Under the pieces are notes generated by a model. It ran no database searches, was not told the origin of the DNA, and saw only the letters and a program-made list of their open reading frames with translations. A program made the position numbers and the translations under genes. From Helicostylum pulchrum (lineage: Eukaryota; Mucoromycota; Mucoromycetes; Mucorales; Mucoraceae): 64,000 nucleotides of DNA. Positions 12,214 through 41,076 of the stretch are shown one piece after another. Location: NCBI GenBank assembly GCA_025677825.1, contig JAIXMO010000015.1, forward strand, positions 186,001-250,000, given 5' to 3'. Position 1 is the first letter of the stretch. Every line of letters begins with the position of its first letter.

Positions 12214-15200
12214 TTATTCTCCATCGGAATCTGATTGAATTATTTGATGATGGTGTAAAGCCGCGTAACTGGATTGACTCTGTCGAGTTAGTGCCCAATA
12301 ATCGGGAACCATCAAGAAGTATCTCTCCATCGCCTCCCTAAATCTAATTCGGTATTGACGAGGCGAAACAATTGTAGGTCCTTTACCTCCGCCTCCTAAT
12401 ATTCCGGATTCCTTTACCCAACTTTCGAGTTTCTTGTCCCAAGTAAATGTACGGATAAAATCTACAATACCAACTACTAACTCTTGTCTTTCTTCGTCAA
12501 TGCCAACAAGTAAAGAATAGTCCATGACATTTCTTTGTGATAAAAATAAAGTATCGTTGTGAAGTGAGCTTCGAAGTATTTCTTTGGAGTGAGTTCGAAT
12601 GAATAATGGTGATTGGTAGATGACTACAGTTCATATAGTTTTTTTTAGTACAAAGTACATATTATATGTCCGTGTAACTTATACTTTACGTTCTACTAAA
12701 TTTTCATCTAATAAGACCTCATCTTGTTTTCCCGTCGACTGTACATGTCGATTTCTCATAGAACCCTTCAAATCAAAAATCTATAATAGTTGTATAATGA
12801 TAAGATTATCTGTTTTGTTTCCGTTTTTCTCTCTCTTGTACCTTTTTAATATTTCTTTGATAAAACAAGTTTTCCATTACCAATACATCCATTCTCATGG
12901 ATTTACCAGTAACAGAATTTTTATAACCAATACTGTAGAATCCAAATATTTTAGCAAGAACAGTCGGAAGTTCACGAAAGAAAGCTTCAGACATGTGTTG
13001 GAAATATGCAGGTGCGAATCCCAGAAACGCATCTAATTCATATTTTGACATTTGTTTCATTAGCAAACGATCATCTAAGAAAAAAAAAAAAATTAGAGCT
13101 ATTAAAATTAAAAAGTATACTTAGTCTTACTTTTTGTTTTCAGAAAAGCAGATCCGGATTTTCCACCAGAAGAATCCCATTTAATACAACTAGCCAGCGA
13201 CATGATATAACTTTCATCACAACCGCAATTCCTTCGAAGTGCATCAAACTGTTCAGAGAAGAATATTTTACAAAAGAACTTTGAAGAACCAGTTGAGAAA
13301 TCTAATAAGAAAAAGATAAATAAGAATACATACAATTATTAAAGAAAGCGAAGTACTTACTATATCTCATATGAGTGCCTGATTCTCTTAACAGAGTTTC
13401 TTGAATACCATCAACTGATGGGGCTGGGTTTCCACCGTTATCCATGGTTGATATCGACGGGGCCTTCGAACCTGCCAAAGAAGCATTACCAGGTTTAATA
13501 GTTCCATCGTTCGATTGGTTATCACTACTAAATTCTTGAATTTCATGCATTTTTACAAGATAGTCTTCAGAACTGAGGGTATGAGCAATAATTGTACTTG
13601 GCTCATCCTCTCGTACGACAACACAAGACTCAGGAAATACGTATTCAGTAGGTAATCTAAGTCAATAAAGTCAACAATTCGAATTATATATGTATATAAA
13701 AAAAAAAATACGTACAAGGGAGATTCCAGAGGTAAAAGGTTACCTACACCATTATCCGTTAAAAAGTTTGTCAATGTCTTCATAAAAGATATCTTTTCCG
13801 GTGAATGACGACCATCTTCTAAAGCATCAGTAATATTGGAACGACTATAGTCTGCATTACTAGGATGTAAACCATCTGTGATAATATCAGGATGAATATT
13901 ATGCAAGTCGTCTATACTCATAGTATCAACATTTGCTTGTTGATCCATTAAAAGCTCAGAAGCACAAGGTAAATCGCGATCATTTCCTTCTTCGCCAGAT
14001 AGACCCGAAGACATATCCAATTGACCATCGCTAAAAGGAAAATAGGTTTTGGCAAATTGATATTGTTGATGTTCGTTGTTAGTCAAATTTGTTGGTAAAG
14101 ACTGGTTTTCAATTATTTCTTTATCACTGGTTGCTTCCAAAACTGCTGTTGCACCTTCAATAACCTTATGAGTATAAGGTGCCAAAGAAGAAAAGTAATC
14201 AATTTGGCTCTTGTCAGAGTCATCACCAGAGTCATTAGAAAGATCATTGTCGTCATTATCTGCTTCATCTCCATTACTGTTAACGTTTCTAGTAACTAAT
14301 CTATTAGATGTTTGGGTTTCTCGTTTTCTACCGTAAGGGTGTTCAATATAACGTTTTTTACTGCTATTTCCATTTTTGTGGTGTTTCTTTTTATTCTTGA
14401 TGGTTGATTCTATAGATACTGTATCCTCTGGGAAATCACCACTTGCATAAAATTCATCATCAATATCTTCCTGAACAAGATCATTTGCGCGGCTATACAC
14501 TTGAATATACGTCTTTTTTCTCGGCAATCGAGACCTGAATTTACGTGTGTTTATATTTCTTTGAAGGAAAGTACTGGGGTCATCCTCTTCATTGCCATCA
14601 CCTTCAGTATCTTCATTGTATCTATTTCCCAGCTGCTCAAATAGACTTTTATGGTTAAGACGTTGACTATGACCAATAGAGTGATGTCTAATATGTCGAC
14701 CACGTTGTGGAATATTAGCAGAAGTTACAGATCTAGGCATCTTTGCATCAGGAATTTTTACAGGAAGAGTAACGTTAGACAAGTCCTTTTTGGCAGCACT
14801 GCTTTTACCTTTCTTGTCTGTTGAATGAGAAACCGTATTTGAAGAGGGTCGTGCTGAAGAAGCAAAAGTATTCATATTACTTCTTTGACGTCGATTGAAT
14901 AACTGATACAAAGGTGGTGTGGAAGGGATACCAACCTTTACATTAGCACTGTAAAGTGGTATAGGAATACGAGAAGGAGTAAAAGCAGCAGATATGGATC
15001 CAGGACTTTTAAGTCTTAAAAACTTGTTGGAAGTAATTTGATTTAGTGCCTCAATTCCTGTCGATCTTCCTTCATCGATTTTAAGCTTTGCATTTAGTTC
15101 ATTCAGTAGTTCTAGTGATAACCTTCTTCTTATTTCGGGTCTCAAGAAAGAACCCTTATGGTCAGAGTCTACCAGTACAGAATCTTCGGATGATGAAGAC

Positions 15201-18200
15201 TGATCGTCATCATTACCACCAGCTGATGAATTTCTTTCAGAAGGAGACGAAGACAGCGTTGGAAATACCATTTTACTATTTTTCTTGGTATCACATTCAT
15301 CTACCTTTGTAGAAAACTTTCGCTTGTAATTATGGCCTATCAATGTATCATCATCTTCACCATCAAGACCAATACCTAACAAAGGTAGATCCGTTGCTTC
15401 CGTAGCACGTTTGGTACGCTCGTTGTCCATATTAGAGATTGCAAATTCAGAAATGTCTGTAGGAAACATTTTTCGTAAGTGATTTGCTGTAATCTTTTTT
15501 AACTCACGTTCAGGTTGCAAGTAATATCGAACAAAATCAGAGTACATGGCATCCCAATGACTAACTATTTGGAACAGGTGTTTTCGAACACCACTAATCG
15601 TTAGCGTATCATATGGATCTGAATGAGCATAGACATTTTGAACATGTTGTAAAATATCTTTTTTCTCTCCTTGAGCTACTGTTGACATATCTTGAAGTTC
15701 TGTTTTACACGAATCCAGTTTATGAGGGTCTACTAAATCAAAGGGAAACGCCTTGTTACGTTCAATGATTGATTGATAAAACTTATTAATCTTGGATCGT
15801 AATAATGCAAGTTCAGCGTCCTTAATATCCATTTGTACTTTACTGAGAATAAACAACTTCATGGGCGGTACTGTTACTTCGAGTAAATCAATCGAATCAT
15901 ATTGAAATCTAACTGCCAAATTCATATAGCCAAAGTATCTGACATGGTTTCGGTTCATATCGTGTGGACAAATATCTGCTCGGCAATACACTCCTTTTTG
16001 ATAAAAGAATATTTCAAGAAATTTACCAAATGAGTAGTTCCATGTGTTTTCTGATACAGGTAAAACAGGTGTCGGCTTATCACACTCTTTACAGTAATTC
16101 CACATTAAAAGTTTGTTTTGCATACCGGGTAAAGGACAAGCAAATGGTTCAATCATAACATTAACACGTGCGTTACCATGAGCATATGATCTGTAATGTT
16201 GCAGCATAGGGTTATCGCACATAAACGACGAACATGGCTGATGAGCGTCAGTACAGAAATCAGTAATATATTGACCCAACGTCTTATCGGACGGGAATCG
16301 ATAGAAGCTAAATATACGTATTTCCGGTCCTTGGCAAGGAACAGTTGTGACAGTACAGACACTAGAAAACAATACAACAATATTTTGATGGTAAAAGGGA
16401 CTGATAAATTCAGGGTTTTCGCCAATATAAGCTTCCCAGGCTTTGGATATTTGTCGATGCTTTGCTATTAAATCATTCTCAGCTTCAATTACAACATCTT
16501 CTTCGTGCCAGTGTTGATGACGGTAATATTGCTCAGACGACTCAGTTTTCGCTACAAATGTGCTGTTATCAGCGCTATGTATGGACTGTCTTTCAAAGGT
16601 TGAACGAGTAGGGGAAGCGGATAACGGAGCAGTAAAATCTTTTGTTGTGTTGGTGGTTAATATAGATGATCCAGAAGCTGACTTGCGACGTTTTTGATCA
16701 TTGATCAATGCAAGCTTATCCTCGGTTTCTTTTAACGCCACCAAAAGATAAGGAGGCGGGAAAACTACAAACTGAGACACAGAGAGTATCGTATTTTGAT
16801 AGAGCTTTAATAAAGCTGTTGTGTAATGACTATTTATTGTCGCACTATCATCTTCCTCGTATTCGACAACAGAGGTAGCACAAGCGCTTTCTCCAGACTG
16901 CTGCAGTTCCAATTTTGTCAATTCAGATATAACAGATACAAATGGAGATTTCGTAGTTTCTGATAAATAAGATGTAGGTACTGTTGGTCCGACATTTATT
17001 TCTGTCGATCCACGACTTTTAGCAAATGAATCTAACAACAAAGATGTTTCTAGTTTCAAATTGTTCACAACAAACACCATAAAATCGATCAGACGCTTAA
17101 TCACACGTAATGTTTCATCTCGTTCGCCACGTAATACAATAGTACCACCTAATTCAGGAGAACAATTGTCAAAAATCAAAAAGGTCTTTCGACGGTTAGG
17201 AATCCATTCATGCATCACAGTGCGAATTTCAAAAGATCCGCATCGGCCAAAAGATAAGCCATGTTGAAGTTTATCAACTGAAGTTACAATACTAGCTTGC
17301 GTACATCGAGCTATGGCTTCAATCACGCTATGCTTGACGTTATGAACGACTGGTATTTTAGCTTCCAACAGGAACTCTAAGGCTAACCGAGATACTGTAG
17401 ATTTGACTACTAACAAAGAAGGTTTTAGAGCAACAATGCGACCTACTAGTTTTTTAATATGTTCTCGTTCTTGAGTGATAACAGGATTAATCGATAACAA
17501 TTGATTTTCCATCTCAATACGAGAATAATCCAAAGAAAATAACAAGATCAATATACGAGGATTTGAGATGTTATGCATCATACGTTTATGTGCAACATTC
17601 TTTGTACATACAACACCTTTAACATAAAAACTATCAGATGGCACACCGCCAGGAATTTTTTTAATCTTAACATAGTGTCGAACATCCATATCATCGCCCG
17701 CACTAATATCAGGTTGTACATTATGAGCAACCTTTAATAAAATACTCATAATTACTTCCTCCCAGTTACGTTTACTTGTATCCTCTAGCGTAATTTCTTC
17801 CATCAGCTGTCGTAAAATCCTTCGCGCATGTGTTCTTGCACTTAGACTTAATTCTACAATTTGAGGAGGTGGACCAGATACTCTGCGTTGACGAGGAGGT
17901 AAGCGAAGTCTATTTTTACTAGCAGGGGGGGCTTCTTGTTGAAAAGGTTGTGTTTGATTTTGCTGTGACCCATCATTAATAAAAGGATTAGGTGACCAAC
18001 TTTCATTAAATGATTGAGATCCAAAATCTGATTTAGGTAGCCCTATCGTATTGATACGAATCATATTGTTCTTGAATAACTTTTTGTTACCGTTCGCACC
18101 TGTATTACCGCCGTTACCTGTAAAACTTAATCGTCTTAGAGAATTGTAAGAATGTCTACTTGGTAAATTTTTACCTCGAAATTCTTCGGTTCGTTTTATA

Positions 18201-20187
18201 CGAAGACGATTATCGTAGGATTCATCGTCACTTCCTACAGTAGCTACTACATTACTATTAATACCTTGATTAGAGTCAACATTCAGTTGGTCCCCATAAG
18301 TGGATTTCGGCAGTATTTGGCTAGAGTTAGTATGAAACATTCCATAAATTGGAGGTTGTGGTGGAGGCGGAGGTGGAGGTGGAGGTATTAATTGAGGTCT
18401 CTCATAATGAGGATGAAGATGATCTTGATAAGATTCAGTTGTATCCTCATTGTTACCGGGAAATGGGCTTAATTCACTCTCTGCCAATACTGTACCACCA
18501 CCGCGATTTAACAAATGAGGTGGTAGCGGATAATTACTGTTTCCCCTAAAGGTTCCGGGAGATCCGTATTGTGTCATGACAGGATATCTTGTGTCCTCCA
18601 TGGGAGCAGATGATGACGTATTCGATCTTGGTCGTGACAATGTAGTTGACTTTAATAAGGAGGTTCCAGCATCTAATAAACGTTTCAAACCTCCACTAGT
18701 TGTTGATTCATTTGCTGAAGTACCAGTTGTTGTGATAGTTGGGATCACATTAGAAGACGATATCGCGTTACTATGAGGTAATGTTGGTGAATCGTTTGTA
18801 TTATTATTACTATACTGTTCTTGTGTACGAAAAGTATTTGAAGAATGAGGCCTTTCGAGTAAAAAAGACTTTTGAGGCGATCCACCTAAATAATTCTCAG
18901 ATCCATGTGTAGGTATTTCTAAAGCAAACATCGTGGTATCATCATTACCATACGTACTTCTAGTGTGTCTTAACGCAGTTGCCGGTATTTGCATTTTTGG
19001 AACCGCTAGAGGTGGTTTTTGAGATGGTATAATATTCGAATTATAAGATTTACCCGGATGTTGGTTTTGTTGCTGCTGCTGTAACTGCTGCTGTTGTTGA
19101 ATATCCGTATCCGCGTTATTTCCAACCACACTTGTTGCATTTGAAGGATGTTTTGATAAAGGATAATCGTGCGTATCTGAGTTAGAAGGAGGTATATTTT
19201 CTTTCAGTTGTAATAATTGTTCAGCGTAACAAAAGTTGCACACTCGAAATTGACCTTTTTGTTTATAGATCTTCCCAGATATAACGTGAGAAGCACATCT
19301 ACCACAAAATATTTGACCTAAAAAAACATCATTTGATTTCTTTTTAATTATAATTCACTATTTGAAAGAGGGCCATATTATTTACCACATGTACGGCAGT
19401 GGTGCTTTCTTCTTAATAAGGTAAAGGGTTTTCTACACTTGTAACATTCTTTACATTGCTCATCAGGCATCCAAAATTCTTTATCATTCTTTTGACCTCT
19501 TAAACGAGCCAGGATTTTCGAAAGAGAGTTCGAGTTGGATATTGAAAAATTAGTGGCGACTGACTGTGTATCACTATCAATTGATCTTCTTTTAGTTAGT
19601 GGAGAGCCTAGCAAGAAATCGATAGACGCACGACTATCGTCTTGTGATATTCTATTTGCGGACATAATGAATTGGACGGTAGAATTATTACTGGGTTCAT
19701 GCATACACTTTTGTTCCATCTTTTGATTTCCTACTGTGATTGTAGTAGCAGTAGTAGCAGTAGTTGACGTAGAAGGACGTGGAACTGTTTCAGGATGGAT
19801 AGACGTTGGAAAATTTGTAATAGTTTGATCTTTATTCGAATTAGAAGTGGTAGTAGTAGTAGAAGAAGAAGCTGTGGTCAAGTGTCTACTTAAACTAGAG
19901 TTGGTACTAATAGAGTTTGGTAAAGCTAATTGTTGTTGTTGTTCAAAGTTGTTTGGAATGGAAGTAGCAGAATGCTCGCCACTCATTAAAGAAATATCAG
20001 AAGGTTTTTTGTCATTAAGAGTGCTGGTTGTACGAACTGAACAATTATCTTGTATATGAGGCTGTCCAGACACTGCACTTAGGACTTTATCGAATATTTT
20101 TGATAACACGCCTTCTTCGTTTATATTATCTTCGGGTGTTTGAAAGTTAAAACTAGTAAGACTAGACCTACGTTGTTTATTATCCAT
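12214..20187 (-). CDS. FAB1: 1-phosphatidylinositol-3-phosphate 5-kinase (Fab1/PIKfyve)
   Basis: This kinase makes PI(3,5)P2 on endosome and vacuole membranes. Seven exons, 20187-19386, 19317-13716, 13656-13361, 13301-13131, 13074-12842, 12780-12690 and 12623-12214, close in frame to about 2534 aa, at the long end for the family. A FYVE zinc finger lies at about residues 246-310: [14 protein letters not shown], the PI3P-binding [10 protein letters not shown], then FCGRCASH after the first intron. The Cpn60/TCP1-like domain is near 800-1070 (for example [18 protein letters not shown]). The C-terminal lipid kinase runs from [17 protein letters not shown] through [24 protein letters not shown] and [10 protein letters not shown]. 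Long low-complexity Ser/Asn/Gln and proline linkers lie between domains. No DEP domain was seen. Exon-intron phases are consistent throughout. Confidence 0.95.
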
Positions 20188-31270: not shown

Positions 31271-32152
31271 TTTTTTTTTCTGTTTGTTTGTTTGTTAAAG
31301 AAAAAAAAAAGTTAAAAAGAGATAAATCCAATTTAGATTAAAGTGTCAAGGTTTTATTAAGCAGCTTAAAAGTGGCTACTAAAACTGAAAGTCTCGGGTC
31401 TGCGGAAAATTTTCACTTGACTACTAGATAGGTTGAAATGATCAGAAACCCTAGATTTGATGCATCATTGATGTCATTTACCAGAGACAAGTATACTTCT
31501 CATAATAAAGCTTTTATTATGTCCCAAAAGAAGCAAAGGTCGTATTTTTCAAAACAGTAAAAAAAATGTCAAACATTAATTTATTAAATCGAATCAAAAA
31601 GATGTATATTACTAACAAAAGAAAAGCTTCTGCTCGATTAAGACAATTAGTTCTTGCATATACGTATATATTGTGATTTATACTTCGACTATTGGAACAT
31701 TATATTTTGCATACACGATATAAAAAATCTGAAATAGTACATATAACCTTTACGTTTACAATGTCTTATCTCGGAGATTTTATAAAACGAATAATTCATG
31801 AACTTTAGAGTGACGTTATTATTCTTCGTGTTATATACCAATTTTTTAAGTACTGATAATATGTATAGTATTACCAAAGCTATAAGTACGTATGTTCGCT
31901 TATGAATGCATATACATATATAGGAATAAGCCTTTATCTTTATCGTAGACCTTAGTTCTTTGTCTCGTATCGTAGACATCTTAGTTCTTTGTCTTTTATC
32001 GTAGAGCTTAGTTATGATAAAACGAGTAAATAATTTGATTTCTTACGCATTACAAAATTCTGAGACAGACGGTAACCCTTTAAGGCCGTTACCTAATTTC
32101 TAAAACAGTCCCTTTTCGTTACTGGTTTTTACTTGGGTGTTTTACGTGTATA
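31271..32152. other. Intergenic with small tandem repeat
   Basis: About 0.9 kb between the SUR7-like gene and the 6.1 kb mobile block. It contains TA-rich DNA, a short tandem repeat at 31942-32012 and the TA target dinucleotide at 32151-32152. No gene was seen. Confidence 0.6.
31942..32012. repeat. Tandem repeat, three units of ~28 bp
   Basis: Units start ATCGTAGA and continue with CTTAGTTCTTTGTCT at 31942, 31969 and 31998; the last is partial. They lie about 140 bp from the left end of the mobile block. Confidence 0.7.
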
Positions 32153-32591
32153 CAGTGCGGCTGGTAAATTTTGTCCGTTTCGAAAAAACAAATGGCGATT
32201 TCAGAAAAATAAATGTCAAAAAATAAGTGGCGCTAGCTGAAAAATGATTGGTGGTTTGTTATGAAACGATTGTCGTTTTCGAAAAATTTACTTTGTCTTT
32301 TAGAAGAATTCAATTTTTCGGTTTTTTTATCAGATTGTCATTTACGTACAAGTGAATGTTTATTAAATAAAGGAGCTACTTAGAATTTTGTTTTATCATA
32401 GCAATCGATGATTTGACGTTTAGAGTGCCTACAAAAGCCATAAAGATCACTGAGGCGACAATTCTTTGCGACAGATTTTCTTCATTTTTCAACCTGTGAC
32501 GCCTCATTTTTCCTTGTACAAGAGCCCAAAACTGCTCAATCGTGTTTAGCTCTGGTGAATAAGGGGGCAAATACGTTACTCTGTAACCTCT
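32153..32591 (-). repeat. Left inverted arm of the 6.1 kb block
   Basis: This 439 bp arm is the reverse complement of 37825-38263, with no difference seen on inspection. Similarity stops sharply after GTAACCTCT. It contains the last 64 codons of the transposase (32376-32570, minus strand), including PPYSPELNTIEQFW with the final catalytic Glu region. Confidence 0.85.
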
Positions 32592-32773
32592 GTTATAATC
32601 TCACAATAATAAAATGCAGGGTAAATGCTATTAAAACTCTGTTAAGTTTATTAAAACAAAATTAAGTTTTTTTTTTAAAATTAGAGGTAAATCGTAACCT
32701 TTAATACGAGGATGGGTACTTTTTTTGGGTGCTTTTGAATAATGAGCCACCAGCAGAATATTAAAAACCTTTA

Positions 32774-33247
32774 GTGCACTCTTATGTTCTTGTGCCTTCT
32801 CTTCACTACACTCTCTCTTGTCATAACTTTTATATGAATAAGCCAATAATTTATTTTAAAGTACAATTTCCTAACGGAGGCATAGAAGAGACAGTTGTGG
32901 CTCAGTGTTCTGAAGAATCAAAGTACGTTAATTTTGATCCGAATATTAGATGGCAACTAAAAAAGCTATACAACAAAAACTACAAGGACCGCTTTAGAAA
33001 AGTTTATTCAAAGCAGTGCATTGGTTCAGTCTTTTGTAGCAATACAGACTATGAACTTTTTACTTTGGATAGAAAACCGGCAAGCACAAATGAGCTTATT
33101 GAAAAGCAAAAGTGCGATGCATGTAATAAAGCAATGAACAATAAATCTTGCTTTGCAATAGTTCGATTTGAATTCATCAACAAAAACTCTTGTCGTATGA
33201 TTCACAAAGGAAAACATACACATGGAATTTATAAAAAGAAACAATAG
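32774..33247 (+). pseudogene. MULE-type transposase N-terminal zinc-finger fragment
   Basis: This 157-codon open frame reads like the N-terminal DNA-binding module of Mutator-like transposases (WRKY-GCM1/FLYWCH-like). Visible are SKQCIGSVFCSN, a second pair CDACNKAM and a His pair in MIHKGKHTHGIY. That gives the order CxxxxxC, CxxC and HxGxHxH. The catalytic DDE domain is absent downstream, where the frame closes after KKKQ. The start is uncertain; the internal Met before NKPIIYFKVQ is as likely as the first one. It is probably a truncated remnant rather than a free regulatory protein, though a domesticated zinc-finger protein cannot be excluded. Confidence 0.5.
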
Positions 33248-35603
33248 GAAAGACAAGGACAAAGTAGAGCGAAAAGTAATCCTTGTCTAATTTTTGGCTG
33301 AAAAGTGGAGTGAAAAGTAATCCTAGCCTGAAAGTTATAATGGTTGGCACCCCATGTGCACACATTTTTGAGGAAATAAATTACTTTATTTACAGAAACA
33401 ACTAAACTACTAATCAGTATCAAATATATTAACTATCTTTTATAAATCATACCCTTTTGTTGTTTCCGTGTTAATTGAGTAAAGTCTTTAAAGTATAAAA
33501 TTTAAGTAAAGTAAAAGAAAAACGGAGGAGCTGAAAATAAAGACATTGGTGTCTTTTATAAGTAGTAACTTGTTTTGATCTTCAAAACAGCACAAAAGGA
33601 CAAAAATGATGTACACTTTGATTAGATTTTTTAGTTCTTTTTAAAGATGACTCTTGTTTTATTTAATAATGCTTTTTCTTTTATGCTTTTTCTGGTTCGG
33701 TTATAATATAATAAATGGAATAGTTATGATATATATATATATTTGTTCTAGTCAATCATGCGTTTTTATACAGCGGTTTACTCGTTCTTATTTGATTCAT
33801 ATATATTTTGGGTTTATCACGTATCAACACATCGTGAATACCAAGGGTATTTACGTTTAGTGTTTGTCATCTCTTATCTAAATAGATTATTCATGTGAAT
33901 GCGCATTATTTTTGTTTGAATAGTTGTATCATAGTTCCATGTGAGATGACTTTTACATTTGATTATGTGGAGAAATATTACCTATTTCACTACAGAGTTA
34001 TTTATTGTTTTTACGGAAAGATGCCTGCTGATTTTATTGAGCGTTTGTAGATTGGAATTAGGCCAGTCTTTTATTTGGACGATACACACACCAGTGTTGT
34101 TTAACAAAATCGATAGGATTGACCTATATTATTCTGATAATTATGGTCAGGACAAGAATTAAAAGAAAGTGGGTAAAAAAAAACTCACATGAATGTCGAC
34201 AAATATCAGATGCATCTTGCGAATGAATGAGGTTGAAGAAATGCGAGTGAAAGAAGGCTACCTAGGTAAAGGCACGAGTATTATAACCTGCTACAAGTCC
34301 TTAGCGTTGAATGCACTACTTGCGCTTCTTAAGACAACGGATAAGACCCGCTCTATTTTCAGCTATTCAAATCCTTGCAACGAAAAAAAAAGAGCAGTTT
34401 AGTATCAATCTTGAATGAAAAAAAAAATTCATAACCGTCGTAAGTAAGATCTCAATCTAATAGTTCGGGAGAAGACACTCCACAGTTATACGCCGAGGTT
34501 TATGTTCACAATGGAACATAGCACTACGTAAGGACCATTCGTCACCTGGTGACAGTAAATGCCCCGAGTGATTTAGCAGAGCTTTAGGTACACCTTTTTA
34601 CCATCTGTGTTGAATGATGATGAAGTATGAGGCCGTCGCTTCAAAGCTGAACTCGTTAGACGAGAGCATAGATTAATGAAAAAGTATTGAGCTAAGAGGT
34701 GCGTCACCTTATTTTTTTTATGGAGTAGAAAATTCTTGATTGGCTGCATAAGAATTTGATGCTGAGAAATCTTTGATTGATTGCATAAAAATGTTGAGCT
34801 CCGTATTCCCAAAATCCTGAAAGTGCGAGTCCTTGCTGTCTTTTTTCTAAAAAAGAAAAGAAACAAAAAAAGCTTAAGGTTATAAAATCTATTTCCTCAC
34901 GATGAAGAGATAATACTAATTCTTACATTGAACAAGACAATAGCATCAATGATTGTAGGCTACTTTTTTTTTTGGAGCATTTTGCAAAGAGTTGTTCATT
35001 AGGGTTATGTACAGAGAGCCTGTTGTTGCTTTGTCTTTCATAACCGTATTGACAAAGTTTAAATAATCATTTATTTGGGATTGAGGTCAACGGCTGTTTT
35101 AAGCCAATCTTGGTAAGCACTGGTTCTTGAAACGTGATGAAACATTTGCAACGGGAGTAGGAGCAACATAACTTCGAACGCGTTTTTACTCAGCGTATGA
35201 AGAATACTGGAGAGTAAGAAATGAGGAAGAAATAAATCAGACAGCAAGAAAAATAGAGAAACGTGCACATGAGGCGTTAGAGCAGATAGCCGACAATGTC
35301 TTAACGTAAAAAAGGTAGAGGTTTATATAGCTTTTTCATGTCCGAGTTCACAGATAAATAAGTGCGTTTGTGCCACACTAAAGTGCCACACCTTCCATAT
35401 CTAATTTCCTGCCGTGATTATATAATCCAGTCTTTCGGACAAGACATGCAATTACGGAAATCCTCCAATCCTGTATCCAGACATCAGTTATTACTGGACG
35501 ATGTTGATAAGGCTTAGTTAAAATAAATATGTATTAGTCATAATGGTTAAAGTCGTGAGATAATCAAGTATATGTAAATATATATGAGAACATATATCTG
35601 TAT
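33248..35603. other. Interior of the mobile block, no gene seen
   Basis: About 2.4 kb of non-coding or decayed DNA. There is a direct repeat of GCGAAAAGTAATCCTTG / GTGAAAAGTAATCCTAG near 33270-33325, a perfect palindrome GTCACCTGGTGAC at about 34540, and a diverged ~37 bp duplication near 34735-34800. Frames at 34193-34402 and 34573-34866 match nothing known to me. Confidence 0.5.
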
Positions 35604-36303
35604 ATGCGCTTGATCACATCAAGCAACAACAGTAGCAACAACAGCCACACCACCGCTTTAAATGAAATTACTTTAACTTACAAAGAGTGAGTTTACACAT
35701 TCACCTACTACGTATAATCGTAGTCTTAACTTGAACCTTTTCTTTTATAGGATAACTGGCTTACAAATTCTATATATTGATGATGACTGCGTGAAGACTA
35801 TGCCGGACAAAGAGCTGTTAGAAGGCCTAAGACAACAAACAACACTTGAAAGTCAATTTCAGCTGGTAAGTTAGTAGACGTTTTGCGGCCTGAAACTGAT
35901 TGTTGATGTCTTTTCTTCTAGGATTGAAATCGAAACTCTCTTGACTCAAAGCACCAAGTGGGATGGCGTTGGCTTCCGGGCTGGATCTGATCAAAAAATA
36001 CGCTTTTGCCTAGTTGAGTTTTCTGGGGGAATTAAGAATTGCAAACCAGAAAAAGCTGGCTCTGATGAGAAGAAGGTTGAGAAAGGAACAATCGACTTTA
36101 TTGAATACACCAATGCAGCAAAAGGCCATTTCATCAGGTTTCATGGTAAGCTATTTGCCCTTTAAGATGTTGTATGCATAAGTAAACTGAATTGTTCCGA
36201 ATATCTAGACATGAAACTCTATTTTGAGTTGGTATTTCTCGTTGACAATCATCTTATTCGAAGGGCACATGCCATAGTCAAATTACCTACTACTCCTTCT
36301 TAG
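35604..36303 (+). pseudogene. Small multi-exon gene of a scattered family, probably frame-broken
   Basis: Four exon-like blocks are bounded by good splice signals: 35604-35686, 35751-35865, 35922-36145 and one from about 36210 to the TAG at 36303. The translation has KEITGLQILYIDDDCVK, then WDGVGFRAGSDQKIRFCLV, EFSGGIKNCKPEKAG, IRFHDMKLYFELVFLVDNHL and AIVKLPTTPS at the end. Joining exon 2 to exon 3 at the only good donor and acceptor gives a one-base frame error, so it is marked a pseudogene; I may have missed a non-canonical junction. The strand-Glu-SGG block and the later MKLYFELVFL strand match the arrangement in the decayed genes at 7929-9230 and 54447-55650. It sits inside the mobile block as possible cargo. 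Function unknown. Confidence 0.5.
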
Positions 36304-37488
36304 TTGAAAGATTACTTCAACCAAACAGAATCACTCTTTACTTGGAAGAAATCCTTAATCGATAGCATCAACAATGCAAAAGTCTCCAAATATGTTGATC
36401 TTTACTTCTTATACAGACATACATACATAAATACATACTTTCTTGCTTCTAAACCTACTTGATTACATATTTACCTGCTTACATACATACCTATATCTTT
36501 TTCTATACACGTACACACAATAGTAAAAATACATTTTACATATTCACAATTCATAAAGAAAAAAAGGGGTCAACCCTTATCTTATGACGCCTACAACTAC
36601 TTAGATCGACAAGTTATAGGAATCACTTTTCTTTTTGTAGTAGATGGGAAAGCCTTATTAAGTGGATTGCCTTATCTATGCTATTTCTGAGCGCTACACC
36701 TTTTGCTAGAATGCATTTTGAGTTCTTTTCTGGCCGAAAAGTGAAGAAGAGCACTACATAAATAAGAAAAGAGGGCATCAATAAAAGAACCTTCTTTCAG
36801 GTCAAAGGAGAGTAGTCTACCTGAACTTTATATATTTATGTCTGTCTTTGTGTGTGGGTGTATGCCAGTGTATGTTGTGGTTGTTTGTCTATCAAGTAAA
36901 GAAAAAGAAAAAAATACGGTCTAACAAACTTGCTTCTTTTTTTTTTTTGAAAAGTGTGTCTACCTTTGAACATAGTTCTTATTGTTTTTCTAATTTTTCA
37001 ATAGTTGATATTGTTGACTCTCTTATTGCGACTGTTACTAACTGGTCTATTGTCTCTGTTGTTGTAGTTACATAACATCATTTAGACTTGGATCCTCCTG
37101 TTGTCCATCTTTTGGTTTTTGATCTCTTTTTTTTGGGCTCTTCTATCAACTGGTATTTAAATCGACTGAGCGGACCAAGATCCAGATAAATATTCACCTA
37201 ACGTTAGAGATGAACATCTTTAAAGTTCCAGTATGGGACCAGTATGGGACCAGGAGGAACTTTTCCATTCAATGTGTCAAACAAGTATTGGAGTTCGAGA
37301 TCATCTTCCATTGGTGGGATTGGTGGGAGGTTTACTGGACTGGCTGGAGGATTATAACTTGAGATATCAGTGACCACTTCTGTCCGTTCTGAGAAGCAAT
37401 TAGGCCCCAATGGAAACTGTAAAAAACTTGTTCTCCTTCACACACCATTATTGGTGCTATACATTGTTCTAGAGTTATATATGTTGCT
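36304..37488. other. Interior of the mobile block, low-complexity DNA
   Basis: A CATA/TACA microsatellite-like stretch occurs near 36415-36500. A minus-strand open frame at 37204-37410 encodes a Pro-rich peptide (NPPASPVNLPPIPPMEDD) that I do not recognise. The end of this interval, from about 37440, already reads as transposase in the + frame (SHTIIGAIHCSRVIYVA). Confidence 0.45.
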
Positions 37489-38040
37489 ATGAAAAAGCCT
37501 CCACCCAAGAAGCTAAAAGGTCAAGAAAGTCAGACTACGAAGACAACGAAACCAAAGAAGAGAAAGCTTGTGAGAGGCAAAGAGCAAAGAGCCGGGGACA
37601 TTATCATTGAAGATCCTACTGTAGTGTACGTTGACATTGAGGAGAGTAGTACCAGCGAAAACAACAAGCCAATAGCAAAGGGTACAACAGCTGCTCATTT
37701 TATGAAATTCATGAATGAGCTTCTTGATATCATGGACACGGACGAAAGCCTTATTGGCAGTTATCTTGTAATGGATAACTGCATTATTTACAAGTCGCAT
37801 CCAATGATAAGAAATATTGAGAGTAGAGGTTACAGAGTAACGTATTTGCCCCCTTATTCACCAGAGCTAAACACGATTGAACAGTTTTGGGCTCTTGTAC
37901 AAGGAAAAATGAGGCGTCACAGGTTGAAAAATGAAGAAAATCTGTCGCAAAGAATTGTCGCCTCAGTGATCTTTATGGCTTTTGTAGGCACTCTAAACGT
38001 CAAATCATCGATTGCTATGATAAAACAAAATTCTAAGTAG
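37489..38040 (+). pseudogene. 5'-truncated IS630/Tc1-mariner (DDE) transposase
   Basis: The open frame encodes 183 aa of the C-terminal catalytic half of a DDE transposase. A basic stretch (MKKPPPKKLKGQ, KPKKRKLVRGK) precedes KGTTAAHFMKFMNELLDIMD, the second catalytic Asp in LVMDNCIIYKSHPM, and the Glu block YLPPYSPELNTIEQFW. Reading can be extended upstream through SHTIIGAIHCSRVIYVA to a stop, but the helix-turn-helix and first Asp are missing. Asn-Thr replaces the usual Asn-Pro in the PELNPIE motif. The last 64 codons are duplicated exactly in the left arm. It cannot encode an active transposase as it stands. Confidence 0.85.
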
Positions 38041-38263
38041 CTCCTTTATTTAATAAACATTCACTTGTACGTAAATGACAATCTGATAAAAAAACCGAAA
38101 AATTGAATTCTTCTAAAAGACAAAGTAAATTTTTCGAAAACGACAATCGTTTCATAACAAACCACCAATCATTTTTCAGCTAGCGCCACTTATTTTTTGA
38201 CATTTATTTTTCTGAAATCGCCATTTGTTTTTTCGAAACGGACAAAATTTACCAGCCGCACTG
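37825..38263 (+). repeat. Right inverted arm of the 6.1 kb block
   Basis: This is the inverted copy of 32153-32591, 439 bp with equal length and no indel. It spans the transposase 3' end and about 223 bp of terminal non-coding DNA. It ends 247 bp before the start codon of the ribonucleotide reductase homologue. Confidence 0.85.
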
Positions 38264-38318
38264 TATTTCGTGAGTTACAGTCGAAGAACTTCAACCCTTT
38301 TAAACAATGTAGTACATA

Positions 38319-38466
38319 ACGCGACAAATGTTTATATCTTTTAAACGCAGATGCGTCTATTAAATAAATCGCGTCTTGACAGGACGTTCGATTTCGCTTG
38401 TCGCGTTTTTTTTGCGCCATTACAAAAAAAAAAAAGAAAAGAAAAAGGACGTGATTAAGAACGCGA
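38319..38466. promoter_or_regulatory. Cluster of four ACGCGA (MCB-like) motifs
   Basis: ACGCGA occurs at 38319-38324 and 38461-38466 on the + strand, and as TCGCGT at 38369-38374 and 38401-38406. All lie within 200 bp upstream of the start at 38511. ACGCG cores bind MBF-type factors that drive G1/S transcription of ribonucleotide reductase in yeasts. The last copy overlaps CGCGAAA, the Swi4-type core. Use by this organism is inferred. Confidence 0.55.
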
Positions 38467-38510
38467 AATTTTTTCTTTTTTCTTCTTTATTATTTATAAT
38501 ACTAAAAAAA

Positions 38511-41076
38511 ATGTACGTTGTAAAGAGAGGTAACGTATTTCTGTCACAATTATACTCTAGTATGGTGTACTTAAACCATTTATAGACGGAACCCAAGAAA
38601 AGGTCTTCTTTGATAAGATTAGTTCTCGTATCAATATCTTATGTGAAGGTCTTGACGAAAATTACGTTGATCCTCCTAAAATCTCTCAAAAGGTAAAGGA
38701 ACCGATATATAAATGTTTTCGAATAGGATACACACTAATAATAATCGATATATAGGTTGTTTCAGGCATGTATCCTGGTATTACTACCTTTCAGTTAGAT
38801 GAGTTGGCTGCCGAGATCGCTGTTGACATGACTAGTATCCATCCCGATTACGCTATTTTAGCTGCTCGTATTACTATCTCCAATCTCCAAAAGCAAACTC
38901 ACGATAAATTCTCTGATGTTATACAAGAATTATACGACAATGTTCATCCCAAGACTGGAGCTCGTAATCCCTTAATTTCCAAGGACTTTTTAGATCTTGT
39001 TTTAAAGCATTCCGACGCCATTAATAAGACTATTAATTACCAACGTGATTTCGATTTCAATTACTTTGGTTTCAAGACTTTGGAACAAAACTTTTTATTA
39101 AAAATCAAGGACAGAATTGTTGAACGTCCTCAACATATGATGATGCGTGTTGCTCTTGCCATTCATGGTGAGGACTTGGAATCTGCTTTCAAGGCTTATG
39201 ACTATACCTCTCGTAAACTCTTTACTTATGCTGCTACTACCCTTTTAAACGCTGGTACCAACTGTGGTCAACTCTCTAGTTTCTTTGAAGTTCAGATGAA
39301 GGAAGACAGTATTGAAGGTATTTATGACACTGTTTCCACCTGTGCTCGTGTATCCAAGGCTTCTGGTTCTGTCGGTATGAGTTTCCAAAAGATTCGTGCT
39401 TCTGGTTCTTATATTGCAGGTACCAACGGTACCTCTAATGGTATTGTTCCTATGCTTCGTGTCTTTAACGATGCCGCTCGTTTCATTACCCCTGGTGCTA
39501 GAAAAGTAAAGGGAACTTATGCTGTTTATTTGGAACCTTGGCACGCTGATATCTTTGACTTCATTGATCTTTCAAAGAATTCTGGTGAAGAGAATCTCCG
39601 TGCTCGTCATCTTAACCTTGGTCTTTGGATCCCTGATATTTTCATGAAGCGTAAGTTTATATTTGTATATTTTAAGAGTTTATATTAGAGATTAATGTAT
39701 GTATAAATTTTTTTTTAAAAAAAATAGGTGTTGAGGGTAATGCTGATTGGTCTTTAATGTGCCCTAACGAATGTCCTGGACTTGATACCTCTTTCGGCGA
39801 GGAATTCGAGGCTCTTTATCTCAAGTATGAAAAGCTTGGTAAGTCTAGAAAGGTTGTTTCTGCTCAAAAGCTTTGGTTCGCTATTTTGGACGCACAAATC
39901 GAAAGTGGCATGCCTTACATGTGTTACAAGGATTCCATTAACAAGAAGAATAACCAAAAGAACTTGGGTGTTATTTCTGGCTCCAACATGCATGCTGATA
40001 TTATGCAATACTCTGATATTAACGAAGTTGGTTCTTGTAACATTGCTTCTGTTGCTCTTCCCAAGTGTGTTGATGAAAAGGCCCGTACCTTTGATTTCGC
40101 TATTCTTCATGATATTGTCAAGGTTGCTATCAAGAATTTGGATAAGATGATTGATGTCAACAACTATCTTATTGAGGAAGCCAAGACTAGTGCTCTTAAG
40201 CATAGACCTCTTGGTTTAGGTGTTCAAGGTTTAGCCGATGTTTTTTTGATGATGCACTATCCTTTCGACTCCCCTGAAGCTCGTGAATTAAACAAGGATA
40301 TTTTCGAATCCATTTATTTTGCCGCTCTTGAAGCATCCAACGAAATGGCTCAAAAGTCTGGCCCCTATCCTTCTTATGAGGGATCCCCTATTAGTCAGGG
40401 TATTTTACAACACGACATGTGGGATGTCCAAGGTTCTGCTCGTCTTGATTGGGATACCCTTCGTGCTAACATCAAGGCTCATGGTGTCCGTAACTCAGTT
40501 CTCCTTGCTCCCATGCCTACTACTACTACTAGTCAACTCCTTGGTAATAACGATGGCTTCGAACCTTATCAAACCATGATCTTTACTTACCGCTCTCAAG
40601 CTGGTGAGTGTCAAGCTGTTAACCCCCATTTACTCAAGAACTTGATTGAACGTGGTATGTGGAATCCTAAGGTTAAAGAGATGTTAACTCAATCTAACGG
40701 TAGTGTTCAAAAGCTTCCTTTAATCTCTGATGACCTCAAGAGTCTTTATAAGACAGTCTGGGATATTTCTCAACGTGTTATTATTGACATGGCTGCTGAT
40801 CGTGCTGCCTTTATTGATCAATCTCAATCACTTAACCTTTTCTCTGCTGAGCCTACCTATGGTCGTCTTTCTGCTATGCATTTCTATAGTTGGAACCGAG
40901 GCTTAAAGACTGGTATGCAATTCCTCAAGACTAGCCCTGTCGAAGCCATGAGATTAACTATGGGTGAAGAACCTAAGGAAGACATTGAAGCAGAAATTGA
41001 ACAAACTGCTGATGATTTAGCTGCTATTGCTTGTTCTCTTGAGAACCCTGAAGCATGTGTCAGCTGTAGTGGATAA
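38511..41076 (+). CDS. Ribonucleotide reductase large-subunit homologue lacking catalytic residues
   Basis: Four exons, 38511-38529 (19 nt), 38586-38692, 38756-39650 and 39728-41076, close in frame to 789 aa. Class I large subunits reduce ribonucleotides by a thiyl radical. The ATP cone is present (MYVVKRDGTQEKVFFDKIS), as are YFGFKTLEQNFLLK, RPQHMMMRVALAIHGEDLE, DSIEGIYDT, GSYIAGTNGTSNG, YLEPWHADIFDF, MCPNECPGL and the C-terminal CVSC pair. The key residues differ from the family: Cys218 is Phe (QLSSFFEV), the radical Cys429 is His and Glu431 is Asp (SNMHADIMQY; usually NLCTE), and the Tyr-Tyr relay is Gln738-Phe739 (TGMQFLK). Asn427 and Cys444 remain. The loop-2 GGN is replaced by PGARK. 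The numbering matches human RRM1 at 218-444. It looks like a maintained pseudoenzyme, with codon choice resembling highly expressed genes. The true RNR1 would lie elsewhere. Confidence 0.9.

Follow-up and report, generated by a model that had tools for sequence, protein, structure and literature searches.

A clade-wide, catalytically incomplete ribonucleotide reductase large subunit in Mucorales, a likely pseudoenzyme and candidate non-catalytic alpha' partner of RNR1

To our knowledge, catalytically dead large subunits of ribonucleotide reductase (RNR) are known only from betaherpesviruses. On the small-subunit side, yeast Rnr4 (beta') is a paralogue that is inactive alone and works by assembling with an active subunit; the protein described here may be comparable, as a paralogous RNR subunit that is probably inactive alone as well, with Rnr4 a small subunit and ours a large one. 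Passages of PMC5469499 describe the betaherpesvirus R1 homologues (HCMV UL45 and its kin) as inactive, with most catalytic residues gone, and as put to non-catalytic use; these proteins are viral and act on host signalling, whereas ours is a cellular paralogue beside an active parent. Yeast Rnr3, a minor catalytic subunit according to part of PMC6545439, is not dead, unlike our protein. The C-terminus of Neurospora UN-24 acts in trans on another R1 and complexes with Rnr1p in yeast (passages of PMC3618301), but UN-24 is the sole large subunit of its fungus, with a second function in nonself recognition by allelic tails, and ours is a paralogue. Sections of PMC8097288 present fungal pseudonucleases of the Dis3/RNase II family as conserved inactive paralogues of an essential enzyme, although that enzyme is unrelated and their role lies in RNA binding. 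Class I RNR is reported, in an excerpt of PMC8085122, from all early-branching fungal genomes analysed for cobalamin. The main text of a 2022 RNR phylogeny (PMC9531940) contains none of the words 'inactive', 'herpes' and 'paralog', a search of the open-licence literature by title and start of abstract returned no paper on the clade described below, and one scan of viral contigs with the profile of this clade returned two loci, both 53% identical.

The gene lies at 38511-41076 of a 64-kb stretch of Helicostylum pulchrum DNA, hereafter the window, and its four exons, separated by three GT..AG introns of 56, 63 and 77 nt, encode 789 aa without a stop.

38511..38529, plus strand: exon 1 (MYVVKR), ending at an intron 1 position identical to that of both active paralogues
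38586..38692, plus strand: exon 2, start of the ATP cone (Pfam ATP-cone PF03477, residues 1-88, E 2.1e-10)
38756..39650, plus strand: exon 3, with the remaining ATP cone, the all-alpha domain, F218, the specificity site with loop 1 and the rebuilt loop 2
39728..41076, plus strand: exon 4, with the remaining barrel, the dead catalytic loop and the C-terminal tail

The Pfam domains follow in the order PF03477 (1-88), PF00317 all-alpha (142-212) and PF02867 barrel (219-737; 612 bits), and human RRM1 structure 3hnc_A aligns by phmmer over almost the whole length of the protein. Judged by domains and alignment, the gene is a class Ia RNR large subunit by descent. An earlier sequence-only reading had put forward this four-exon, 789-aa model with its ATP cone, a DSIEGIYDT block (found at 39305) and a C-terminal CxxC, and re-derivation reproduced coordinates and residues exactly. 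Rfam at gathering thresholds gave no match in the 64-kb window. With Mucorales type-A RRM1/Rnr1 the protein shares domain order, ATP cone, specificity site, barrel, CxxC tail and first intron position; unlike type-A RRM1/Rnr1, it is without the radical, redox and acid-base residues and the main substrate contacts, and its loop 2 is replaced. The relevant positions, in human RRM1 numbering obtained via phmmer to 3hnc_A and a MAFFT alignment, are the following.

39281..39283, plus strand: codon for Phe in place of redox Cys218
39485..39511, plus strand: loop 2 (286-294), with Pro288 and Val293 for Gln288 and Arg293
39985..39999, plus strand: catalytic loop, N427-M428-H429-A430-D431 for N-L-C-T-E (MAFFT alignment)
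40918..40923, plus strand: Gln-Phe for radical-relay Tyr737-Tyr738 (residues 738-739 of the window protein; codons 40918 and 40921)
41056..41073, plus strand: C-terminal redox tail CVSCSG

Cys429 has become His (codon 39991) and Glu431 Asp (39997), N427 and C444 (codon 40036) are retained, and DQGGNKR of loop 2 reads TPGARKV from 39488. These replacements and retentions had all been called before (C218F, C429H, E431D, Y737-Y738 to Q-F, PGARK in loop 2, N427 and C444 kept), and every one was exact in the alignment, to which we add Q288 to Pro, R293 to Val, G247 to Ser and S606 to Thr. Passages of PMC3483043 identify loop-2 Q288 and R293 as crucial to substrate recognition and note that the G247 backbone touches the substrate 2'-OH. 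Of the residues that mark a working enzyme, the thiyl Cys429, redox Cys218, Glu431 and Tyr737-Tyr738 are all missing. The protein thus appears to be without what thiyl-radical NDP reduction needs, and its inactivation is well supported by the alignment.

A PF02867 search of the 32.2-Mb assembly gave seven matches that resolved into four genes, the window gene (on contig C57, whose positions 186001-250000 make up the window) and three others on contigs C142, C111 and C113. Two of these are active-looking RNR1 genes, namely type A on C142 (799 aa) and type B on C111 (797 aa), with all seven checked catalytic residues in both; the sequence-only reading had proposed looking for a canonical RNR1 elsewhere in the genome, and the search thus supplied two candidates. 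The window protein is 62% identical to the type-A protein. The latter differs at 1 of 799 residues from P0049 of Helicostylum pulchrum, in agreement with the source of the window (Mucorales, Mucoraceae). C142 and C111 are themselves 66% identical overall, falling to only 56% in the specificity-site/dimer block, and their loop 2 reads QGGGK in type A and QGGNK in type B; they are two separate RNR1 lineages. Two small-subunit genes (C161 and C10) look intact by eye, with radical-Tyr and DEGLH-type segments that we take as small-subunit marks, and inspection by eye found no dead small subunit among these two.

The fourth gene, on C113 (L010:3500-5487), is of type B and decayed: five in-frame stops and a change of frame interrupt it, a stretch of about 120 residues is missing and CxxC has become CxxY. 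Nevertheless, it still carries C218, N427, C429, E431, C444 and Y737-Y738. It serves as a control for the window gene because decay broke its frame and spared its catalytic residues, the reverse of what is seen in the window.

Relatives were sought with phmmer and then with profile A1 (the window protein plus 15 matches), the best 120 of 8000 scored being taken from each search and clustered at 90%. Sixteen relatives (P0001-P0015 and P0021), of 68-89% identity, stood among the best 120 of 8000. Fifteen of them topped the phmmer listing, with P0021 amid active RNR1s, and profile A1, built without P0015, ranked all sixteen on top at 1303 to 1631 bits, the next match being an active RNR1 at 1261, with no further clade member among the best 120 of 8000 scored. 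Among the matches listed, the named sources are seven genera: Mucor, Mycotypha, Benjaminiella, Cokeromyces, Rhizopus, Choanephora and Gilbertella. Counts over 16 rows refer to the window protein and 15 relatives; P0015, a 708-aa Mucor lusitanicus model without the catalytic loop, was left out, and its visible residues agree with the clade. The alignment also omits P0048 and P0072 (over 1000 aa) and P0121-P0145, of which P0139 alone entered the 57-row tree; the rows of both trees (57 and 42) were hand-picked from the matches, and P0004 and P0006 were omitted from the smaller one. The window protein and its 15 relatives form one clade with 100/100 support in the 57-row tree. In the 42-row tree, rooted with other fungi, this clade joins the Mucorales type-A lineage at a fork supported 88/88, with the inner order unresolved and a stem of 0.66 changes per column, and an AU test did not reject the dead clade as sister to the type-A genes (C142, Mucor, Rhizopus, Choanephora and similar; 11 rows; p 0.26).

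The catalytic losses run through this clade. C218, E431 and Y737 are absent in 16/16 rows, and all seven catalytic residues are present in 104 of the 105 other aligned rows, the exception (P0056) being an alignment gap at two of them. The sequence-only reading had asked whether His429, Phe218 and Gln-Phe are shared across relatives: the loss is indeed common to the Mucorales genera, but the replacement residue varies, His429 occurring in 10/16 rows and N, Y, S and one C in the others, with D, N or A at 431. C444 is kept in only four rows, the window protein among them. The single Cys429 belongs to P0021 (Rhizopus stolonifer), which has F218, T427, N431 and H737 all the same; that cysteine is either a chance reversal or a remnant.

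Other features are fixed throughout. All 16 rows carry both cysteines of the CxxC (C787 and C790), P288, D57, and D226, K243, R256 and S269, which we take to be specificity-site residues, and D16 is found in 6/6 rows having that end. The ATP cone is seen in only 6/16 rows, ten models being without the N-terminal end, which counts against the alpha' interpretation given below. Eight of the database models (P0002-P0006, P0009, P0010 and P0014) take as their start the Met that follows intron 2 (742-743 aa) and have no ATP cone, probably since annotation overlooked a very short first exon such as the 19-nt one here. S217 and T604 in 16/16 rows, T607 in 15/16, a loop 2 fixed in new form and a barrel that Pfam still recognises (PF02867, 612 bits) might suggest an enzyme with altered chemistry on a nucleotide. 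We regard this as highly improbable, given that the radical, redox and acid-base residues are gone together with the substrate contacts, and that the species-to-species variation at 429 (H/N/Y/S/C) and 431 (D/N/A) is unlike selection for one reaction.

The clade is nonetheless constrained. Across eight species (28 pairs), distances among dead proteins were a median 1.74 times those among active ones (range 0.49-2.48; four ratios fall below 1, each of them from a pair with Cokeromyces, in which the active copy evolves fast), so that the clade evolves faster than the enzyme and nowhere near free drift. Between the window gene and C142, dN is 0.30 and dS 1.8, a ratio of about 0.17 that is rough because dS is near saturation; the active paralogues C142 and C111 give dN 0.31 and dS 2.4. 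Both the ratio to the type-A paralogue and the orthologue divergence speak for the non-neutral evolution on which the sequence-only reading had made its case depend. At eleven columns that are near-invariant among active proteins, 16/16 clade rows share one and the same other residue, indicating new constrained sequence. With EF-1alpha, EF-2 and three Hsp70 frames as reference, the window gene has a codon adaptation of 0.660, above C111 (0.534), C142 (0.480) and every other mechanical frame of 180 codons or more in the window (19 frames, 0.182-0.654). P0001, on a 2698-base contig, reads unbroken where introns 1 and 2 would lie and so looks like a spliced transcript. Decay, sequencing error or mis-assembly would account for the changed residues and the somewhat faster divergence and for nothing else, and is hardly credible when all 16 rows share three losses, the frame is open with introns in place, and dN is so far below dS. 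We rejected decay or assembly error on the losses common to 16 rows, with C113 showing what real RNR1 decay looks like, and a processed or decaying pseudogene on the three introns and the open frame. The gene therefore combines lost catalytic residues with a conserved, constrained clade and an active paralogue alongside, the pattern of a pseudoenzyme, and the earlier view of a likely pseudoenzyme with a possible regulatory role gains from the active-looking paralogues, the clade-wide loss and the constraint.

ACGCGA is linked to MBF/E2F-type G1/S control, and yeast RNR genes are under G1/S control. Immediately upstream of the start codon lies a stretch with this motif.

38267..38510, plus strand: putative G1/S promoter, the stretch from a transposon end to the ATG, carrying four ACGCGA (38319 plus, 38369 minus, 38401 minus, 38461 plus)

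Of the nine ACGCGA in the 64-kb window, four fall in these 244 bp, the motif having been chosen after the sequence was seen; over the window as a whole there is no excess (nine seen, 8.48 expected). Among only seven genes compared, CGCG occurs four times within 210 bp of the C111 start and twice within 500 bp at both C142 and the small-subunit gene C161, and is found at none of small-subunit gene C10, EF-1alpha and EF-2. The stretch is a possible G1/S (MBF/E2F-type) promoter, in keeping with the control of the yeast genes; our search of the open-licence literature found no paper on MBF/E2F with RNR in fungi. The adjoining transposon (32150-38266) is bounded by perfect inverted repeats of 442 bp (32150-32591 and 37825-38266), contains a DDE_3 transposase frame that runs into one arm, and stops 244 bp before the RNR-like start codon; its identical arms suggest recent insertion. 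Elsewhere in the window, a 1933-codon open frame (13556-19354, minus strand) carries a TCP-1/cpn60 domain mid-frame, of the kind found in PIKfyve/Fab1 kinases.

The distribution of changes along the protein points to a targeted rather than uniform loss of catalytic sequence. In 42 active RNR1 rows, 331 positions are near-invariant; at 61 of them the residue survives in no more than half of the 16 clade rows, and these 61 include 12 of the 15 catalytic or substrate positions (Fisher p 1.7e-7) and none of the 11 specificity-site positions (p 0.23, alone not significant), by position lists that we assembled mainly from class Ia structures and take as given. Relative to 10 active rows from the same species or stand-ins (Pilobolus for Mycotypha, Blakeslea for Gilbertella, Mucor circinelloides for M. 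lusitanicus and Rhizopus azygosporus for R. microsporus), divergence is 10-fold in segment 201-222 around C218 and 8-fold in 425-447 around C429, but 0.1-fold in loop 1 and the specificity site (256-275), 0.9- and 1.3-fold in the ATP cone and 1.5-fold in the C-terminal tail. A second contrast emerges around the specificity site.

39296..39484, plus strand: specificity-site/dimer-interface block, positions 223-285, 86% identical to C142

Over this block, whose borders were chosen after the alignment was inspected, the window protein and C142 reach 86% identity, as against 60% elsewhere, and 8/8 species pairs agree (73-87% versus 56-62%); set against type-B C111, the block reaches only 49-52%. 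Active type-A proteins are 84-89% identical to one another over the block (six Mucorales and Umbelopsis rows). Within it only 246-275 is tighter in the clade than in active rows; segments 223-245 and 276-285 show 1.4 and 3.3 times the active divergence, the latter dropping from 98% to 93% identity, which weighs against an alpha' role. Recent gene conversion as the source of the conserved block was considered and is unsupported, since codons for the same residue match only modestly more often within the block (63%) than outside it (54%).

Passages of PMC3483043 state that loop 2 joins the specificity site of one subunit to the catalytic site of its neighbour and that dimerisation needs effector binding, and passages of PMC3618301 that the neighbouring R1 inserts its C-terminus into the catalytic site, where it takes over the disulfide. 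The parts that the window protein keeps are those that act on the neighbour and the parts that it has lost, loop 2 included, serve its own site, which favours a regulatory alpha'. We hold, at a level of belief barely past the midpoint, that the product of the window gene is a non-catalytic alpha' subunit, one that forms pairs with RNR1 and acts in trans to tune or assist it. The fuller version, a dedicated trans-acting half of RNR forming an obligate alpha-alpha' regulatory heterodimer in Mucorales, is more tentative and falls somewhat short of that midpoint. Under such a scheme, alpha' would pair through block 223-285 with type-A RNR1 (C142) and not with type B (C111), its specificity site would signal to the partner's catalytic site, its CxxC tail could re-reduce the partner's active-site disulfide, and through its ATP cone the mixed complex would become responsive to ATP/dATP, such that alpha' would tune or support RNR as yeast Rnr4 does on the small-subunit side. 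We infer the partner and the direction of this effect, as well as the step from kept sites to binding and function. A single clade on a long stem followed by constraint accords with an alpha' subunit, as do a codon adaptation higher than in both active paralogues and upstream CGCG motifs like those at C111, C142 and one small-subunit gene. The model does not explain the P288-fixed loop 2 or the diverged tail linker; the linker (742-772) is 15% identical to that of C142 over 27 aligned positions, which tells against it, where C142 and human share 29% and C142 and C111 48%.

The same kept sites could be read differently. A stand-alone dNTP/ATP sensor or scaffold, forming homodimers or hexamers via its own specificity site and cone and acting outside RNR on replication, checkpoint or cell-death proteins, would likewise keep both sites, as any homodimeric dNTP sensor would, with the catalytic core free to drift; the eleven newly fixed columns and a codon adaptation above that of the active paralogues suit it as well, and viral dead R1s act on signalling proteins (passages of PMC5469499). 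We consider this unlikely, as it leaves unexplained both the CxxC in 16/16 rows and a dimer block at type-A level. Less likely again is a dominant inhibitor, in which the dead subunit would poison or cap RNR1 dimers and hexamers, for instance in spores or at times other than S phase. No more than one site could work in a mixed dimer, the dimer block is close to that of type-A RNR1 and the cone is kept wherever the N-terminus is known, all of which would serve a poison; yet the gene's CGCG motifs are similar to the ones at C111 and at a small-subunit gene and would, if they signify co-expression, place it in the same phase as the enzyme. We prefer support or tuning to plain poisoning, since the redox tail would be superfluous in a poison. 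Among the roles listed by the sequence-only reading (capping or poisoning RNR oligomers, sensing dATP through the cone, or a moonlighting scaffold), the balance of these arguments leads us to favour a partner in RNR oligomers over an unrelated scaffold.

Several clade members carry ordinary-reductase names in databases, so that metabolic reconstructions of Mucorales may count a dead enzyme as a live one. If the alpha' subunit proposed here is real, a conserved cellular dead large subunit beside active copies would add a layer to RNR control. An alpha with allosteric sites and tail and no catalysis would be a natural separation-of-function tool, and could directly reveal which tasks within the class Ia alpha dimer are performed in trans, a distinction that otherwise needs engineered mixed dimers.
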